Below are positions 2,399-52,203 of a DNA stretch of 55,143 nt, piece by piece. The stretch spans positions 1-55,143 of the IMG/VR virus record IMGVR_UViG_3300033153_005039; one strand, written 5' to 3'. Origin of the DNA: a virus. Position 1 is the first letter of the stretch, and each line of letters starts with the position of its first letter. Both the position numbers and the translations under genes were made by a program. Under the pieces are notes generated by a model. That model worked only from the letters and a program-made list of their open reading frames with translations, was not told the DNA's origin and did no database searches.

Positions 2399-2839
2399 AT
2401 GAAATATCTACTCGTAGCAGTACTCGCACTGGTTTTGACATTCGCATCGGCATGTTTCAGCACCGTACCGACGGAACCGGAGCCTGTAGATGCGGAGATG
2501 AATACCGCTCTCGACATGATCCCTGACCTGCCGTATGATCTCGATTGCGGTAAGACGATGCGGGACTATTTCAACGTCACATTCTTTGACTCGGAGCGCA
2601 CAGCCCAGGCAGAATTTGAATGGGGCACTGACATGACCCCGGATGAGGTTCGACAATACTTCGCGGTCAAGATCAGCCTCGAAAGTTTTAAACCATATGA
2701 ATGCCTTGTGTACCCGTACTTTCTCGCAGCCATGCACTCACCCACGTTCACCGACGATTCAATCATGATGCTTGTAATGTGGATTGAGATGGGCGGGGAA
2801 GATGTACCGAACGGACCTCCGCCGGAGATGGATTGCTGA
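2399..2839 (+). CDS. Phage-encoded lipoprotein, 146 aa
   Basis: ATG follows AAGGAGACAACA. The N-terminus is a classic lipoprotein signal: Lys, a hydrophobic core of about 14 residues and the lipobox ASAC, so Cys19 would be lipidated. The mature part is acidic, with two TPDEV-like helices and a Pro-rich end. Phage lipoproteins often alter the host envelope or block superinfection, which is inference here. A dedicated upstream promoter suggests expression independent of the replication operon. Confidence 0.75.
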   Translation: MKYLLVAVLALVLTFASACFSTVPTEPEPVDAEMNTALDMIPDLPYDLDCGKTMRDYFNVTFFDSERTAQAEFEWGTDMTPDEVRQYFAVKISLESFKPYECLVYPYFLAAMHSPTFTDDSIMMLVMWIEMGGEDVPNGPPPEMDC

Positions 2840-2841
2840 TG

Positions 2842-2850
2842 TGATATAAT
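2842..2850 (+). promoter_or_regulatory. Extended -10 promoter (TGATATAAT)
   Basis: TG-A-TATAAT lies just past the lipoprotein stop. Its predicted start point (near 2857) is the first strand of a strong RNA stem, and no ORF follows before a terminator. Confidence 0.6.
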
Positions 2851-2855
2851 CAAAC

Positions 2856-2979
2856 GGGGGGCGGTCCTCTCACAACTACCTCCAACCGAAAGCACTGCAC
2901 TGTTCACCCTCGCAATATACCGTCCCCCTTATTTCGTCCTCCTCTCTTTACGCCCCCGGTGACCCGAGCCGGGGGTTTT
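2856..2979 (+). ncRNA. Candidate small RNA, ~124 nt, with anti-SD-like loops
   Basis: The intergenic stretch has its own extended -10 upstream and an intrinsic terminator at its end. Bases 2856-2864 (GGGGGGCGG) pair with 2920-2928 (CCGTCCCCC) through nine base pairs including one G-U. The 55-nt loop contains ACCTCC at 2878-2883, and a linker before the terminator contains TCCTCCTCTC at 2937-2946. Both match the anti-Shine-Dalgarno sequence and could pair with GGAGG ribosome sites. No coding potential is visible. The transcript and its role are inferred. Confidence 0.5.
2953..2979 (+). terminator. Intrinsic terminator
   Basis: Perfect 7-bp stem CCCCCGG/CCGGGGG around a nine-base loop, followed by TTTT. 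It ends the candidate small RNA and insulates the ParB-methyltransferase gene. Confidence 0.75.
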
Positions 2980-2980
2980 A

Positions 2981-2989
2981 TGGTACAAT
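2981..2989 (+). promoter_or_regulatory. Extended -10 promoter (TGGTACAAT)
   Basis: TG-G-TACAAT directly after the terminator and 16 bases before the start codon of the ParB-methyltransferase gene. No -35 match is evident. Confidence 0.55.
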
Positions 2990-3005
2990 CCGGGCAGGAG
3001 CGAAT

Positions 3006-4172
3006 ATGAAGATCGCGACTAAGAAATTATCAGAGCTGAAACCGGCTCAATATAATCCCCGTCAAATCTCAGACACCGCAATGGCAGGACTCCGGGCGAG
3101 TATCGAGCGATTCGGACTCGTGGAGCCCATCGTGTGGAATAAGCAGACTGGGCATATCGTAGGCGGACACCAACGCCTGAAGGTCCTGGAAGAGCAGGGC
3201 GTTAAAAAAACCGAGGTAGTCGTAATCGATATCGCGGAATCAGAGGAACGTGCCCTTAACGTGACGCTGAATAATCCCGGTATCACTGGTGAGTTCACGC
3301 CTGACCTACAGGCAATACTTGGTGATATCAAGCTGGACATCGGCGAGGATGATTTCTGTGACCTGCGTCTCGACGATTTGCTCGATCCAGTGCTGAAGGA
3401 AGGCAAGACTGATCCCGACGACATCCCTGAAGTAACAGAGCCGACAGTCAAGCCCGGTCAGATATGGAAGCTAGGCATGCACCGGGTTATGTGTGGTGAC
3501 TCGACCGACGCGGGAGCTGTGGCGTTGCTTATGGACGGGATGAAGGCTGATATGGTTTTCACTGATCCGCCATATGGTATCGATTATATTCCGAATTATT
3601 CAACATCGAACCGCCCTTATAAGAATTCTGCTATTAAAGGGGATGACAAAGTTGACATATCATGGATTGAGCTATTCGAGGCACCGCGAAGATATGTTTG
3701 CACACGCTGGGATGTATATCCACACTGGCTGACTGCCCTAAGTAATGTTAAAAATTTAATTGTCTGGGATAAAGGTCAAGGTGCGGCGGGCAATGTAAAA
3801 TCATATGCGCCAAGACACGAATTTATAATCTTTACGGCAAGTGATTCAGGGGAAACGCATCGAGACAAAAGGCAGGATAACCTCTGGTTGGTTCCCGGAT
3901 TCGCGCAATTCACAGCAAGAACAAAAGAGGATACATGGGGTGTTCATCCAACGCAGAAGCCGGTTCAGTTAGTCGAGAATGCGATATTAGATAGCTCGCA
4001 TGCAGGAGAAGTCGTCGTGGACCCATTCCTCGGTTCCGGCTCAACCCTGATAGCCTGCGAACGCACCGACCGCGCATGTTATGGAATGGAAATAGATCCC
4101 CACTACTGCGATGTGATAATCAAACGCTGGGAGGATTATACCGGCTACAAGGCCGCACTTGTGGTACAATAA
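3006..4172 (+). CDS. ParB-like nuclease/CTPase domain fused to a DNA methyltransferase
   Basis: Residues 1-120 form a ParB/Srx-type domain, with the GGHQR signature at 53-57. Residues 145-388 form an SAM-dependent N6-adenine/N4-cytosine methyltransferase, with the catalytic DPPYGIDY at 187-194 and the cofactor loop DPFLGSGST at 339-347 (beta-class order: catalytic motif first). Such fusions are common in phages and usually methylate phage DNA. Target sequence cannot be read from the protein. The gene has its own promoter and ribosome site GCAGGAG. It is one of three methyltransferases in the genome. Confidence 0.92.
   Translation: MKIATKKLSELKPAQYNPRQISDTAMAGLRASIERFGLVEPIVWNKQTGHIVGGHQRLKVLEEQGVKKTEVVVIDIAESEERALNVTLNNPGITGEFTPDLQAILGDIKLDIGEDDFCDLRLDDLLDPVLKEGKTDPDDIPEVTEPTVKPGQIWKLGMHRVMCGDSTDAGAVALLMDGMKADMVFTDPPYGIDYIPNYSTSNRPYKNSAIKGDDKVDISWIELFEAPRRYVCTRWDVYPHWLTALSNVKNLIVWDKGQGAAGNVKSYAPRHEFIIFTASDSGETHRDKRQDNLWLVPGFAQFTARTKEDTWGVHPTQKPVQLVENAILDSSHAGEVVVDPFLGSGSTLIACERTDRACYGMEIDPHYCDVIIKRWEDYTGYKAALVVQ
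4162..4170 (+). promoter_or_regulatory. Extended -10 promoter (TGGTACAAT), probably leaderless
   Basis: TG-G-TACAAT ends eight bases before the ATG of the small terminase candidate. Initiation about 7-8 bases downstream would fall on the start codon itself, and no Shine-Dalgarno sequence lies between. Confidence 0.55.
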
Positions 4173-4177
4173 ACCCG

Positions 4178-4756
4178 ATGGCAGGTAAACCAAAATATGA
4201 CTGGGACAAGATCGAGGCACTCTTTGTAACGGGCGACATGTCGATGAATGATCTCGCGGCATCTGAGGGCGTACCCGTAACAACACTATATACAAACGCA
4301 TCCGACAGAAACTGGACTAAGAAACGACAGGAATACAGGGACTCTCTCAGAGAAGAGCAAATCGAGATCGCCCGGAAGGATGCCATCGATGATAAGTCGA
4401 AGTTCGATACTATGACTGATCGGGCTTGCAACGTGGCGTCGGCAATGGTGGCAAAGAAATTAACCGACGCTCATAACGACCCTAAGAACAAATCGATTAC
4501 CAGTGGCGAGCTCAAGACGATGATGGATACGGTCCGCACGACCCAGGAAATCAAATACCGCCGTCACGATATCCCGGCTCCTAAGCAGCCCATTGAACTC
4601 GAAAGCAAAGATTCATTCATGCGATACCAGGAAATGCTCGCTATGGAGACAGCCAAGCTCAGGGAGCGCGGTAACGGCAACGGTGCCGACGATGAACCGG
4701 AGAAGGAAGAGGGCACATACGTCCCGGTGAAGCTGGAACTGCCAGTACAGAATTAG
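4178..4756 (+). CDS. terS: Probable terminase small subunit, 192 aa
   Basis: Residues 5-55 look like the helix-turn-helix of terminase small subunits: YDWDKIEALFVTGDMS, then LAASEGV, then TTLYTNASDRNW, then KKRQEYR. A long helical middle and a charged C-terminal tail follow, as expected for a DNA-recognising oligomer that docks on the large subunit. The ORF opens upstream but only inside the methyltransferase gene. No ribosome site is present; the -10 element directly upstream suggests a leaderless mRNA. About 4 kb of small genes separate it from the large subunit, which is unusual. Confidence 0.7.
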   Translation: MAGKPKYDWDKIEALFVTGDMSMNDLAASEGVPVTTLYTNASDRNWTKKRQEYRDSLREEQIEIARKDAIDDKSKFDTMTDRACNVASAMVAKKLTDAHNDPKNKSITSGELKTMMDTVRTTQEIKYRRHDIPAPKQPIELESKDSFMRYQEMLAMETAKLRERGNGNGADDEPEKEEGTYVPVKLELPVQN

Positions 4757-8807: not shown

Positions 8808-8816
8808 TGCTATAAT
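8808..8816 (+). promoter_or_regulatory. Extended -10 promoter (TGCTATAAT), probably leaderless
   Basis: TG-C-TATAAT ends six bases before the terminase ATG. The predicted transcription start falls on or beside the start codon, and no ribosome site is present. Confidence 0.6.
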
Positions 8817-8822
8817 TAATCC

Positions 8823-10220
8823 ATGACCGCCATCCAACAGGCACAAGATCACTACGGGCTAATCGAACCGTGGCGTCTCGCGATCTGGAATACTATCGGA
8901 TTCAAGATGCATCCGGGGCAGGCTCGCGGACTGAAATCATTCCTTGAGCATGACTTCACCTGGATTTGCGCCGGCGGTCGTGGCGGAAAGTCATCACTCA
9001 TCGCGGCAATTATATACTCTGAATTCGTTCGCACACCCGACACTGTAGCAGAGGGTGAACGCTGGCCCAAACAAATCCTCATCCTTGCACCCCAGTACAA
9101 GCAGGCGCGAATCATCTTCGGGATGGTCTACCGCCTCGTAAAGAAATTCGGCATCCCCTTGAAAACGGATCGATTCAGTGAGCAGGCGATGGAACTCGAA
9201 TCAACATGGGGCGCACTCCTGATGTGCATGACCGGACGTAACAAGGATGCATGGGCTGGATTCAACTGGGATTTTGTCGTTGTCGATGAGGCTCCGATAT
9301 TCCGCGATGGGAAAGCTTTCGAAGAGATAATATTCCCGACGCTGTTAGATGAGCAGGGTAAATTCCTCGCAATCGGCACACCGGATTACCCCGGTTCGTT
9401 CTCCCATACCTGGATGCTGGACGGGCTCGATCCCGCCGTGGAGGACTGGGGCTTTGCTCACTGGACAACAATTGATAATTGGTTCATACCCCATGCAGAG
9501 GAGTGGATCGATAAGCGACGGCGCACGACCCCCGATGATATTATTCGACGGCGTTACTTTGCCGAATACGTGAGCCGTTCCGGTCTGGTCTATCCTGAGT
9601 ACCTGCAATGCGTCCACGACTTCACAGCCCCCACCAGTGGACGTTATAACCGCGCCATTGACTTCGGGTTCATTAATCCGTTCGCGTGCCTTGTCGTGCC
9701 CCGTGTGAGCGATGAGTTCTACGTCGTGGATGAAATATTTGAAACGCAGATGAATAAGAGCGAACTCGCGCCGATGCTTAGAGCCCAGGATCATGAGCAC
9801 CCGTTTAAGAGGTCCAGCTTCAATGTGTGCGACCCTGCCGATCCCGAAGGAATTGATTACTTCGGCAAATGGATAGACCCCAAGGGAGGCCGTATCAAGG
9901 GCGTGTGGGTCCGTGATTATTCCAAGGGCGGTATCATGGACCGGATAGATTTCGTGCGCCGTATGATGACCTCAGGGCTCGTACACATACACCCACGGTG
10001 CAGAGAGCTTGTACGTGAGTACTCAGTTTATGCATACCCTGAAAAGAAGGTCGCTAAGAATATTTCAGAGAAGCCGGTCGATTCCGATAACCACGGCATC
10101 AAGGGATTCGAGTATTTGACAGAGTATTTATTTAGTGGTACATTCGATTTGAATATGGATTCGATTCAAGCTGGCGGGAAACGTAAGAGTGCGCGGATAT
10201 TAAAGGGTTATAATGGCTAA
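8823..10220 (+). CDS. terL: Terminase large subunit
   Basis: DNA-packaging motor. The ATPase has a Walker A at residues 51-58 (GGRGGKSS) and a Walker B at 151-158 (FVVVDEAP), with the coupling segment near 185. The RNase H-like nuclease begins around AIDFGF at 278-283, whose Asp is a likely metal ligand. Length (465 residues) is normal and the sequence has the style of Mu gp28-type terminases. It overlaps the portal gene by eight bases. The mRNA seems leaderless, with a dedicated extended -10 promoter that probably starts the late operon. Confidence 0.95.
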   Translation: MTAIQQAQDHYGLIEPWRLAIWNTIGFKMHPGQARGLKSFLEHDFTWICAGGRGGKSSLIAAIIYSEFVRTPDTVAEGERWPKQILILAPQYKQARIIFGMVYRLVKKFGIPLKTDRFSEQAMELESTWGALLMCMTGRNKDAWAGFNWDFVVVDEAPIFRDGKAFEEIIFPTLLDEQGKFLAIGTPDYPGSFSHTWMLDGLDPAVEDWGFAHWTTIDNWFIPHAEEWIDKRRRTTPDDIIRRRYFAEYVSRSGLVYPEYLQCVHDFTAPTSGRYNRAIDFGFINPFACLVVPRVSDEFYVVDEIFETQMNKSELAPMLRAQDHEHPFKRSSFNVCDPADPEGIDYFGKWIDPKGGRIKGVWVRDYSKGGIMDRIDFVRRMMTSGLVHIHPRCRELVREYSVYAYPEKKVAKNISEKPVDSDNHGIKGFEYLTEYLFSGTFDLNMDSIQAGGKRKSARILKGYNG

Positions 10221-44619: not shown

Positions 44620-44680
44620 CATTTCCTCCAGTGTTTTTGTGGGGACCGGACGCACACGCAAGTCGCCCGGTCCCCGGACG

Positions 44681-49627: not shown

Positions 49628-49656
49628 AATATAACACACTTAAATGTTTTTTGCAA
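49628..49656 (-). promoter_or_regulatory. Leftward promoter of the HTH regulator (PRM-like)
   Basis: Minus-strand TTGCAA and TATATT are separated by 17 bases. The -35 abuts the -35 of the rightward promoter (49657). The spacer contains CTTAAATGTTTT, part of a direct repeat. Confidence 0.7.
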
Positions 49657-49676
49657 TTGACATCCTTAAATTTTTC
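49639..49676. promoter_or_regulatory. Direct repeat, probable operator sites in the divergent promoters
   Basis: CTTAAATGTTTT (49639-49650) and CTTAAATTTTTC (49665-49676) lie in the spacers of the leftward and rightward promoters, 26 bases apart, on the same strand. They are the obvious binding sites for the HTH regulator, but no footprint is available. Confidence 0.5.
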
Positions 49677-49685
49677 GTTTATAAT
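49657..49685 (+). promoter_or_regulatory. Rightward early promoter
   Basis: TTGACA, a 17-base spacer and TATAAT, both boxes perfect. It drives the structured leader and the replication operon from 50024 on. Confidence 0.88.
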
Positions 49686-49751
49686 CCAAGCGTACACTCA
49701 AGTCCTCCCCCACGGAATGGGCTTTGAGGCCGGGGGTGACACGGAGGTTGC

Positions 49752-49770
49752 CCCCGGTGAACCTTGAAAA
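49752..49770 (+). repeat. 19-bp repeat in leader, copy 1
   Basis: CCCCGGTGAACCTTGAAAA, overlapping the 3' arm of the first hairpin. An exact second copy lies 96 bases downstream in the same position relative to another hairpin. Confidence 0.9.
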
Positions 49771-49847
49771 TAAAATAGAATCCTCATCAGAGGTTTCCTT
49801 GCCGACAGGGGCAAGCCACAATTAATGGGAGGTGGCCTGTCACATCT

Positions 49848-49866
49848 CCCCGGTGAACCTTGAAAA
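49848..49866 (+). repeat. 19-bp repeat in leader, copy 2
   Basis: Exact copy of 49752-49770. The hairpin arms upstream differ in sequence but both pair, so the structure appears to be conserved in the duplicate. Confidence 0.9.
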
Positions 49867-50023
49867 GTTATTGAAGTGGGCTGCCGGAAAGCTTAAACGT
49901 CACTGGCAATACTAGTCAGCCACACAAGCCTCTACCGACAGTCCTCTTGAATAACTGCGCTGTAAGGAATTCAGCCGGGGGACACCAGACGCGATTCTGA
50001 TCCCCCGGCACCTGGAGGACACG

Positions 50024-50323
50024 ATGGAAAAAATGACACTGGATGAATTACTACACCACATAAACTGCTTTGGCGAGGCGAACGAATCAAGCACGGCGAA
50101 CATTATCCACGCCTTCATTAAGAAAAACCGCGACGCCCTCACCGCTGGATTGCAGAAGCCTTTGAGGTTTAAAGAAAAAAACGGGACGTGGGCTGAGGTT
50201 TTTCCCGATGGCGAATATGTCTACGACGATGGAGACGGCAATTCGGCATTGAATTATTACGATAAGCAGGCAGTGATAAACGATTGTAAGCGTCGCGGCC
50301 TGCCCTGTGAATTCATCGAATAG
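50024..50323 (+). CDS. Hypothetical protein, 99 aa
   Basis: First gene of the rightward early operon; CTGGAGGACACG leader directly after the long hairpin. Helical beginning (LDELLHHINCFGE) and a C-terminal beta-containing part ending RRGLPCEFIE. A short leftward ORF at 36179 has a similar ending. Function unknown. Confidence 0.75.
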   Translation: MEKMTLDELLHHINCFGEANESSTANIIHAFIKKNRDALTAGLQKPLRFKEKNGTWAEVFPDGEYVYDDGDGNSALNYYDKQAVINDCKRRGLPCEFIE

Positions 50324-50610: not shown

Positions 50611-50852
50611 CCACTGAACAAATAACCCGCCCCGGTGTACGTTGCCGCTGCGGACGGCTCCATGCGTTCTCAGATGGACGCTACGGGCTGATGCAACCGT
50701 CGGTATGCTCTGTGGGTGCTTCGGGGGCATTTACCGCCCTGAGAGTGGCGGTCCCGTCCTGTACAGGAACTTACTGGGTGCCGTGCATGAGCTGGAGTCA
50801 GTGGAAATTTTGCACAAAGGGTATTGATTATGAGCGTACATTTTTCAAGTAA
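50607..50852 (+). CDS. Uncertain small ORF, 81 aa
   Basis: ATG overlaps the previous stop. The start (GVRCRCGRLHAF) looks like a real small zinc motif, but the second half is poor in protein-like patterning. In the +1-related frame, downstream, YRPESGGPVLYRNLLGAVHELESVE reads more like protein (shown here as two short stretches: GGIYRPESGG and LLGAVHELESVEIL). A frameshift in the gene or an assembly indel would explain this. Confidence 0.4.
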   Translation: MTTEQITRPGVRCRCGRLHAFSDGRYGLMQPSVCSVGASGAFTALRVAVPSCTGTYWVPCMSWSQWKFCTKGIDYERTFFK

Positions 50853-51252
50853 AACGCCTGAATGGTCAACACCGCAAGACTTGTTCGACGAGTTGGATCG
50901 TGAATTCGGCTTCAAGCTTGACCCTTGTGCAAATCTAGAGAATCATAAATGCGAGAATTTCTATACCGTCGATAATGATGGGTTGAGTCACGATTGGCAT
51001 TTATTCGGGCCGGTCTTTATGAATCCCCCATATGGTAGAGTTATCGGGAAGTGGGTAAAGAAAGCATACGAGTCAAGCTTGAATGGGGCAACAGTTGTGT
51101 GTCTGCTCCCGGCGCGAACAGATACCCGGTGGTTCCATGATTACATCTACGGGAAAGCCGAAATAAGATTCATTCGCGGTCGTTTAAAATTCGGCGGATC
51201 TAAAAACTCCGCGCCATTTCCCAGCATGATTGCCATTTTTAGGAAGCCTTAA
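50830..51252 (+). CDS. Phage DNA N6-adenine methyltransferase (Dam, PF05869-type), 140 aa
   Basis: EWSTPQDLFDELDREFGF near the start, DPCAN next, then NPPYG at 65-69 (catalytic motif) and a C-terminal GRLKFGG...APFPSM. This is the phage dam family that modifies adenine. Short form without a separate target-recognition domain. Starts at ATG in the region of AAGGG. Confidence 0.93.
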   Translation: MSVHFSSKTPEWSTPQDLFDELDREFGFKLDPCANLENHKCENFYTVDNDGLSHDWHLFGPVFMNPPYGRVIGKWVKKAYESSLNGATVVCLLPARTDTRWFHDYIYGKAEIRFIRGRLKFGGSKNSAPFPSMIAIFRKP

Positions 51253-51253
51253 C

Positions 51254-51532
51254 ATGAAACGACTCACAAAAAAGCAGCTCGAAACCCTGCGAACCATCAG
51301 GGATAAGCCGGACATCTCGCTACGGGAGCTATCAGAACATGAAGGACTCACGATGAAGGGAAGCTACGACCGCATCAACCAGCTCAAAAGGAAGGGCTAT
51401 CTACACGACGATCATAACAAAGCCAGGTTTCTCAGGCTCACAGACAAGGGCAAGTGCGCCGTGGGCGAACCGCCACCACTGCTCGGCGTGATCGAATCGA
51501 CAGGTGAAATATACGAGAGGGTGATGATATGA
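51254..51532 (+). CDS. Winged-helix DNA-binding protein, 92 aa
   Basis: KQLETLRTIRDKPDISLRELSEHEGLTMKGSYDRINQLKRKGYL, given in parts: LRELSEHEGLT as the first helices, SYDRINQLKRKG as recognition helix and FLRLTDKGK as the wing. This is the MarR/LexA-type winged helix. It probably regulates the early operon or its methyltransferases. Overlaps the next gene by four bases. Confidence 0.82.
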   Translation: MKRLTKKQLETLRTIRDKPDISLRELSEHEGLTMKGSYDRINQLKRKGYLHDDHNKARFLRLTDKGKCAVGEPPPLLGVIESTGEIYERVMI

Positions 51533-52203
51533 GCGACATCCTCAAGATAGAGACCGACCAGTACACGCTGTACAACTGCGACTGCATGGACGTGCTGGCT
51601 ACGATCAAGGCTGATTGCGTGGTGACGGACCCGCCGTATGGGATGAATTGGCCATGCGATATGACACGATTTTCTGGGGGGAACCAAGATAGAAGTTTCG
51701 GAATAAAAAGGGAGCAAGTAATAAACGATGACAGACCATTTGATCCGGTACCTTGGCTAAATTTCAATGAAGTAATCTTATGGGGCTACAATCACTTCGC
51801 ATCAAAATTGCCAGTGGGGACTACGCTTGTCTGGATCAAGAGGCTCGACGGCCTTTATGGAACATTCCTTAGCGATGCCGAATTAGCATGGATGAAGGGC
51901 GGTCATGGGGTCTACTGCCAGAGAGATGTATCGATGTACTCTAAATATGCTGATTCGACTAAAGATTACCCTGATAAACATCCGACAGAAAAGCCAGTCG
52001 GCATCATGGAATGGTGTATTGAGAAATGTAAATCAGATACGATATTCGATCCCTACATGGGATCGGGCACAACGGGCGTGGCGTGCGCCCGGTTAGGTCG
52101 TAAGTTCATCGGGATCGAGATTGACAAGAAATACTTTGATATTGCCGTGGAGAGAATCGACCGTGAACACGCACAGGGCAAGCTGTTTGACACCGCCGAT
52201 TAA
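51529..52203 (+). CDS. DNA methyltransferase, N6-adenine/N4-cytosine, 224 aa
   Basis: VVTDPPYGMNW at 32-42 is the catalytic motif and DPYMGSGTTG at 174-183 the SAM loop; again beta-class order. KHPTEKPV precedes the loop, as usual. Third methyltransferase in the phage, so at least two different target types are likely. Followed by two hairpins in a 133-base gap. Confidence 0.93.
   Translation: MSDILKIETDQYTLYNCDCMDVLATIKADCVVTDPPYGMNWPCDMTRFSGGNQDRSFGIKREQVINDDRPFDPVPWLNFNEVILWGYNHFASKLPVGTTLVWIKRLDGLYGTFLSDAELAWMKGGHGVYCQRDVSMYSKYADSTKDYPDKHPTEKPVGIMEWCIEKCKSDTIFDPYMGSGTTGVACARLGRKFIGIEIDKKYFDIAVERIDREHAQGKLFDTAD

Follow-up and report, generated by a model that had tools for sequence, protein, structure and literature searches.

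A candidate phage small RNA with exposed anti-Shine-Dalgarno-like segments and a stem-closed C/U-rich loop

A predicted non-coding RNA between two phage genes

The 55,143-base virus record analyzed here (the window, i.e. the whole stretch of DNA at its full length) carries an element at 2840-2979 of the + strand that is probably a real regulatory RNA. The record belongs to a tailed phage with terminase, portal, head and tail genes, and the element is positioned between the predicted genes for a lipoprotein and a ParB-domain DNA methyltransferase (Table 1). That it specifies a discrete non-coding RNA with segments resembling the anti-Shine-Dalgarno (anti-SD) sequence in exposed positions is well supported by sequence features, chance controls and two elements of the same build in a related contig. 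With slightly less than even confidence we favor a trans-acting, stand-alone anti-SD sRNA of about 124 nt, for which we infer expression, trans action and targets.

Table 1. Positions of the element, its neighbors and comparable features in related contigs (window coordinates unless a contig is named)
Feature	Position	Strand	Details
Upstream gene	2399-2839	+	predicted 146-aa lipoprotein (signal + Cys)
Extended -10 promoter	2840-2850	+	TGTGATATAAT (TRTGnTATAAT); no -35 hexamer evident
Closing stem, 5' arm	2856-2865	+	GGGGGGCGGT; predicted transcription start 2856-2857
C-rich, G-poor loop, 53 nt	2866-2918	+	CCUCU (2866), CCUCC (2879), CCUCG (2908)
Closing stem, 3' arm	2919-2928	+	ACCGTCCCCC; predicted fold
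Single-stranded linker, 23 nt	2929-2951	+	carries CCUCCUCUC (2938-2946)
Intrinsic terminator	2952-2979	+	9-pair stem (2952-2976) and TTTT tail; hairpin z -3.75
Extended -10 promoter of next gene	2979-2989	+	TATGGTACAAT; abuts terminator, belongs to methyltransferase gene
Downstream gene	3006-4172	+	ParB-domain DNA methyltransferase
L101 element a	L101: 292-381		TGTGATATAAT, stem GGGGCCGCTTGC/GCAAGCGGCTCT, 49-nt loop containing ACUCCUCUU
L101 element b	L101: 2341-2442		TGTGTTATAAT, stem GAGAGAGCGGGA/TTCCGCTCTCTC, 61-nt loop, then UUUCCUCCUUC
terS/terL starts after extended -10, window	4162-4178, 8808-8823		starts 4178, 8823
terS/terL starts after extended -10, L101	L101: 897-914, 2460-2475		starts 914, 2475
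terS only, leaderless in appearance	L099: 287; L105: 5700
Hairpin and extended -10 borders	2952-2989; L101: 2316-2353 and about 860-907; L084: about 868-922

A sequence-only reading of this region had claimed an extended -10, a start point on the 5' arm of a nine-pair closing stem and a terminator with a T-run, all within 124 nt between two genes, and each of these features was recovered. The start was placed according to the position of the -10 and the spacing of 6-8 nt at leaderless genes of the clade. The closing stem comprises 10 pairs including one G-U pair, or nine if transcription starts at 2857, and the predicted RNA from 2856 to 2979 measures 124 nt. The same reading had proposed two anti-SD loops. 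Two exposed CCTCC copies are present (2879 and 2938; unpaired probability 0.71-1.0 in the predicted ensemble), but only the first lies in the large loop, whereas the second is located in the linker ahead of the terminator, whose own loop is GACCCGA. Additional CCTC copies at 2866, 2908 and 2941 are also mostly unpaired. The sequence and the predicted fold would thereby place an exposed anti-SD core in a terminated, stand-alone transcript. The + strand of 2842-2979 contains no ATG. The upstream lipoprotein gene has a promoter of its own at 2361-2371; a family search assigned no protein family to its product, and no relatives of the protein were found. On the other side, the methyltransferase promoter begins on the T-run of the element's terminator.

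This combination of features was absent from randomized sequence. When the window was shuffled 200 times with dinucleotide frequencies preserved, no extended -10 was followed by a strong terminator within 300 nt, and the same holds when the closing stem is included. The sense strand harbors nine CCTCC in 53.9 kb compared to 67 GGAGG; the 124-nt element accounts for two of these CCTCC copies (Poisson P for at least two about 1e-4, an uncorrected local value for a region picked by eye beforehand). Among all 86-nt segments of the sense strand the maximal excess of C over G is located in the element, as are all segments reaching that level. The folding energy of the element is unremarkable (z -1.8), as expected for an RNA that would be built to stay open.

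Recurrence of the build in a related contig

Searches with the terminase retrieved five contigs of the same clade, whose TerL proteins are 64-66% identical to that of the window. One of them, L101 (64%), carries two elements of the same build, consisting of an extended -10, a G-initiated stem of 12 pairs and a C/U-rich loop (Table 1). The stem sequences differ among the three elements, and each stem starts with a G at the predicted start, which lies six or seven bases downstream of the -10. Under a strict descriptor, in which an exact TGnTATAAT is followed after 4-8 nt by a stem of nine or more pairs with a loop of about 35-75 nt, there were exactly three matches in 951 kb, namely the window element and both L101 elements, and none in 9.6 Mb of shuffled sequence. 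Correspondingly, elements were located at 3 of the 12 extended -10 sites in the window and L101, compared to none of 57 in unrelated loci. If the promoter was not required, stem-closed C-rich loops arose by chance, with 10 cases in 750 kb, which indicates that the coupling to a promoter is the distinctive part. A build that recurs while its sequence is replaced is the strongest evidence that the RNA structure matters, in a sample of three elements, two of them on one contig.

Both L101 elements lack a terminator and therefore might not exist as free sRNAs; one continues into a small ORF and the other into the terL promoter. The element is absent from the other clade contigs examined, which are mostly fragments. 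C-rich islands in the contigs L098 and L100 were considered and rejected, as they show neither an extended -10 nor a closing stem and resemble a proline-rich coding stretch. In a MAFFT alignment of the three elements the 5' arms align but the 3' arms do not align exactly, and therefore the base pairs were listed directly instead of building a covariance model. Loop 9-mers shared between the three elements arise in about 4-5% of shuffles and were not taken as evidence. Regarding shorter motifs, CUCCU, which forms the core of the anti-SD sequence in 16S rRNA, occurs seven times in loops and tails compared to 2.4 expected from dinucleotide shuffles (4 of 1000; uncorrected, one of six motifs tested). 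CCUCC is not enriched there beyond composition (142 of 1000).

No homologues of the element were found by DNA sequence in phages, plasmids, viral contigs or genomes, and exact-word matches were rejected as unrelated sequence that does not share the build. Rfam returned no family match; the covariance model of PsrR1 (RF02701) scored 16.8 bits (E 0.83) against a gathering score of 42, which corresponds to chance level. A search with TerL for a host or prophage in 395 and 398 genomes of two guessed phyla found nothing. An architecture-based search thus finds relatives that are missed by sequence searches.

Proposed action on ribosome-binding sites

As an anti-SD sRNA, the element would be transcribed from the extended -10 up to the intrinsic terminator, with its 5' end tied into the closing stem and thereby perhaps protected from decay. 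The stem would present the C/U-rich loop of 53 nt, and another C/U-rich stretch would remain single-stranded ahead of the terminator. Both stretches would imitate the 3' end of 16S rRNA and, by pairing in trans with ribosome-binding sites of the GGAG type, most probably on host mRNAs, could block initiation. A GGAG is present at 48 of the 82 phage genes, which indicates that the phage uses SD sites and that its host presumably does so, too. Target prediction, suggested as a check in the sequence-only reading, was run on the phage's own ribosome sites and gave no signal: the predicted pairing is no stronger than in flank-shuffled or fully shuffled controls. As the phage's sites show no special match, the targets are more likely to be found among host mRNAs. 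Of the earlier proposal, the discrete non-coding RNA that exposes anti-SD-like segments is well supported by the sequence, the chance controls and the two L101 elements, whereas a general translation modulator or sponge is only a candidate role, given predicted pairing at the level of shuffled controls and the missing terminators in L101, which make a cis role possible.

Bacterial chromosomes are known to encode small RNAs with redundant anti-SD motifs, and most of the known phage sRNAs come from well-studied lysogens. The NfeR1 / alpha-r14 sRNAs of rhizobia expose redundant anti-SD motifs in unpaired regions, while their stems vary in sequence (PMC10746234). The phage-borne element shares with these rhizobial RNAs the non-coding nature, several unpaired anti-SD motifs, sequence-variable stems and the terminator at the end. 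However, alpha-r14 consists of three hairpins, each with CCUCCUCCC in its unpaired region, a motif absent from the element, which instead has one closing stem enclosing a single large loop, a linker and a terminator, with CCUCC and CCUCCUCUC as motifs. LhrC of Listeria binds SD regions via CU-rich motifs in a 5' hairpin loop, a linker and the terminator loop (PMC4132741). The element is likewise G-poor, with repeated CU-rich motifs in a loop and a single-stranded linker, but LhrC is chromosomal and multicopy, its motif is CUCCC/UCCC with U-runs, and neither the linker motif of the element nor its terminator loop conforms to it; a relation in sequence is lacking. SprD of Staphylococcus aureus, a 142-nt sRNA from a converting phage, occludes the SD and start codon (PMC2880579). 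It resembles the element in being phage-borne, and a comparable SD occlusion would be expected of the element. SprD, however, folds into three stem-loops with a specific antisense region (to sbi), which differs from the predicted fold of the element, and the element has no match to phage records. Judged by sequence and predicted fold, the element is outside all families tested (alpha-r14 / NfeR1, LhrC, SprD and PsrR1). Its anatomy resembles the working principle of LhrC, NfeR1 and SprD, and for this reason a trans-acting anti-SD sRNA is favored. Anti-SD sRNAs as such are already known; new is the single large stem-closed C/U loop that is borne by phages and of which the build is conserved and the sequence is not.

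The terS and terL genes look leaderless in this clade, as their start codons follow an extended -10 at a distance of 6-8 nt (Table 1). Leaderless mRNAs do not need an SD, so that the terminase mRNAs would escape an SD-blocking RNA. This could be extended to a switch in translation mode, in which the C/U loop would prevent SD-dependent initiation on the mRNAs of the host and on early mRNAs, with leaderless terminase mRNAs still being translated. We regard such a switch as improbable, and the fact that most other phage genes are SD-led counts against a complete one; if true, it would represent an RNA-based shut-off of host translation. If a phage group retains the build of such an RNA but exchanges its sequence, in the neighborhood of leaderless terminase genes, this would provide a testable example of a virus that uses RNA alone to act on translation at the SD step.

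Alternative explanations

A cis-acting function is less likely but is a serious alternative. All three elements are located upstream of or among packaging genes, and they might form a 5' leader of these late genes, in which stem and loop stabilize the transcript or modify RNA polymerase. The missing terminators in L101 fit this explanation, and the short terminated RNA of the window would then be the product obtained without read-through. The late leader from the lambda pR' promoter (6S RNA, ending at tR') is such a short terminated RNA from a promoter upstream of late genes, and expression of the lambda late genes needs Q-dependent read-through. No antitermination factor (Q-like protein) was recognized among the proteins scanned here, a terminator closes the window element and, unlike in lambda, the genes following the elements have extended -10 promoters of their own. 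Furthermore, the loop is C/U-rich and unpaired, which also differs from the lambda leader, and stability does not require a G-free C/U-rich loop. In a read-through RNA the CCUCC linker would mask the SD of the methylase gene, and indeed this SD (2996-3000) is predicted to pair mainly with the linker around 2938-2940, but any CCUCC close to an SD would tend to mask it.

It is less likely still that a C/U-binding protein (Rho, ribosomal protein S1 or Hfq, for instance) lands on the element or is captured by it as by a decoy, which would protect phage transcripts or redirect the protein. Open, very G-poor and YC-rich stretches of 50-80 nt would suit this function (loop and tail of L101 element b hold 2 G in 78 nt), and Rho is known to prefer a C-over-G bubble (PMC10670590). 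However, the window has stretches that are more YC-rich than the element, a Rho site would be redundant given the intrinsic terminator, and the enrichment of CUCCU points toward a sequence-specific role.

Coincidence, with the promoter of the methylase region and the terminator of the lipoprotein gene flanking a C-rich spacer that has no RNA function, appears improbable. The small number of examples, their unconserved sequence and the chance occurrence of promoterless stem-closed loops would be compatible with it, but the descriptor found nothing in shuffled sequence and unrelated extended -10 sites lack the element. A minus-strand gene using the CCTCC motifs as GGAGG ribosome sites was rejected as highly improbable, since the 113-aa minus-strand ORF that exists here (2566-2907) overlaps the lipoprotein gene in antisense over most of its length and is surrounded by genes on the + strand, GGAGG at 2879-2883 precedes a GTG frame of just seven codons, GGAGG at 2938-2942 has no start codon nearby, and promoter and terminator are both on the + strand.

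Additional observations in the clade

A terminator-like hairpin directly followed by an extended -10 recurs in the clade, forming back-to-back borders of transcription units (Table 1). The phage harbors three DNA methyltransferase genes (3006-4172, 50824-51252 and 51529-52203), one of which is a fusion with a ParB-like domain and one Dam-like. A non-coding stretch of about 380 nt (49640-50024) ahead of the gene at 50024 resembles a structured leader; it has a promoter of the TTGACA-like/TATAAT type, segments rich in C and segments rich in G, and CCCCGGTGAACCTTGAAAA occurs in it twice. Between two minus-strand genes, a GC-rich inverted repeat (GGGGACCGG...CCGGTCCCC, 44620-44680) possibly represents a terminator or operator.
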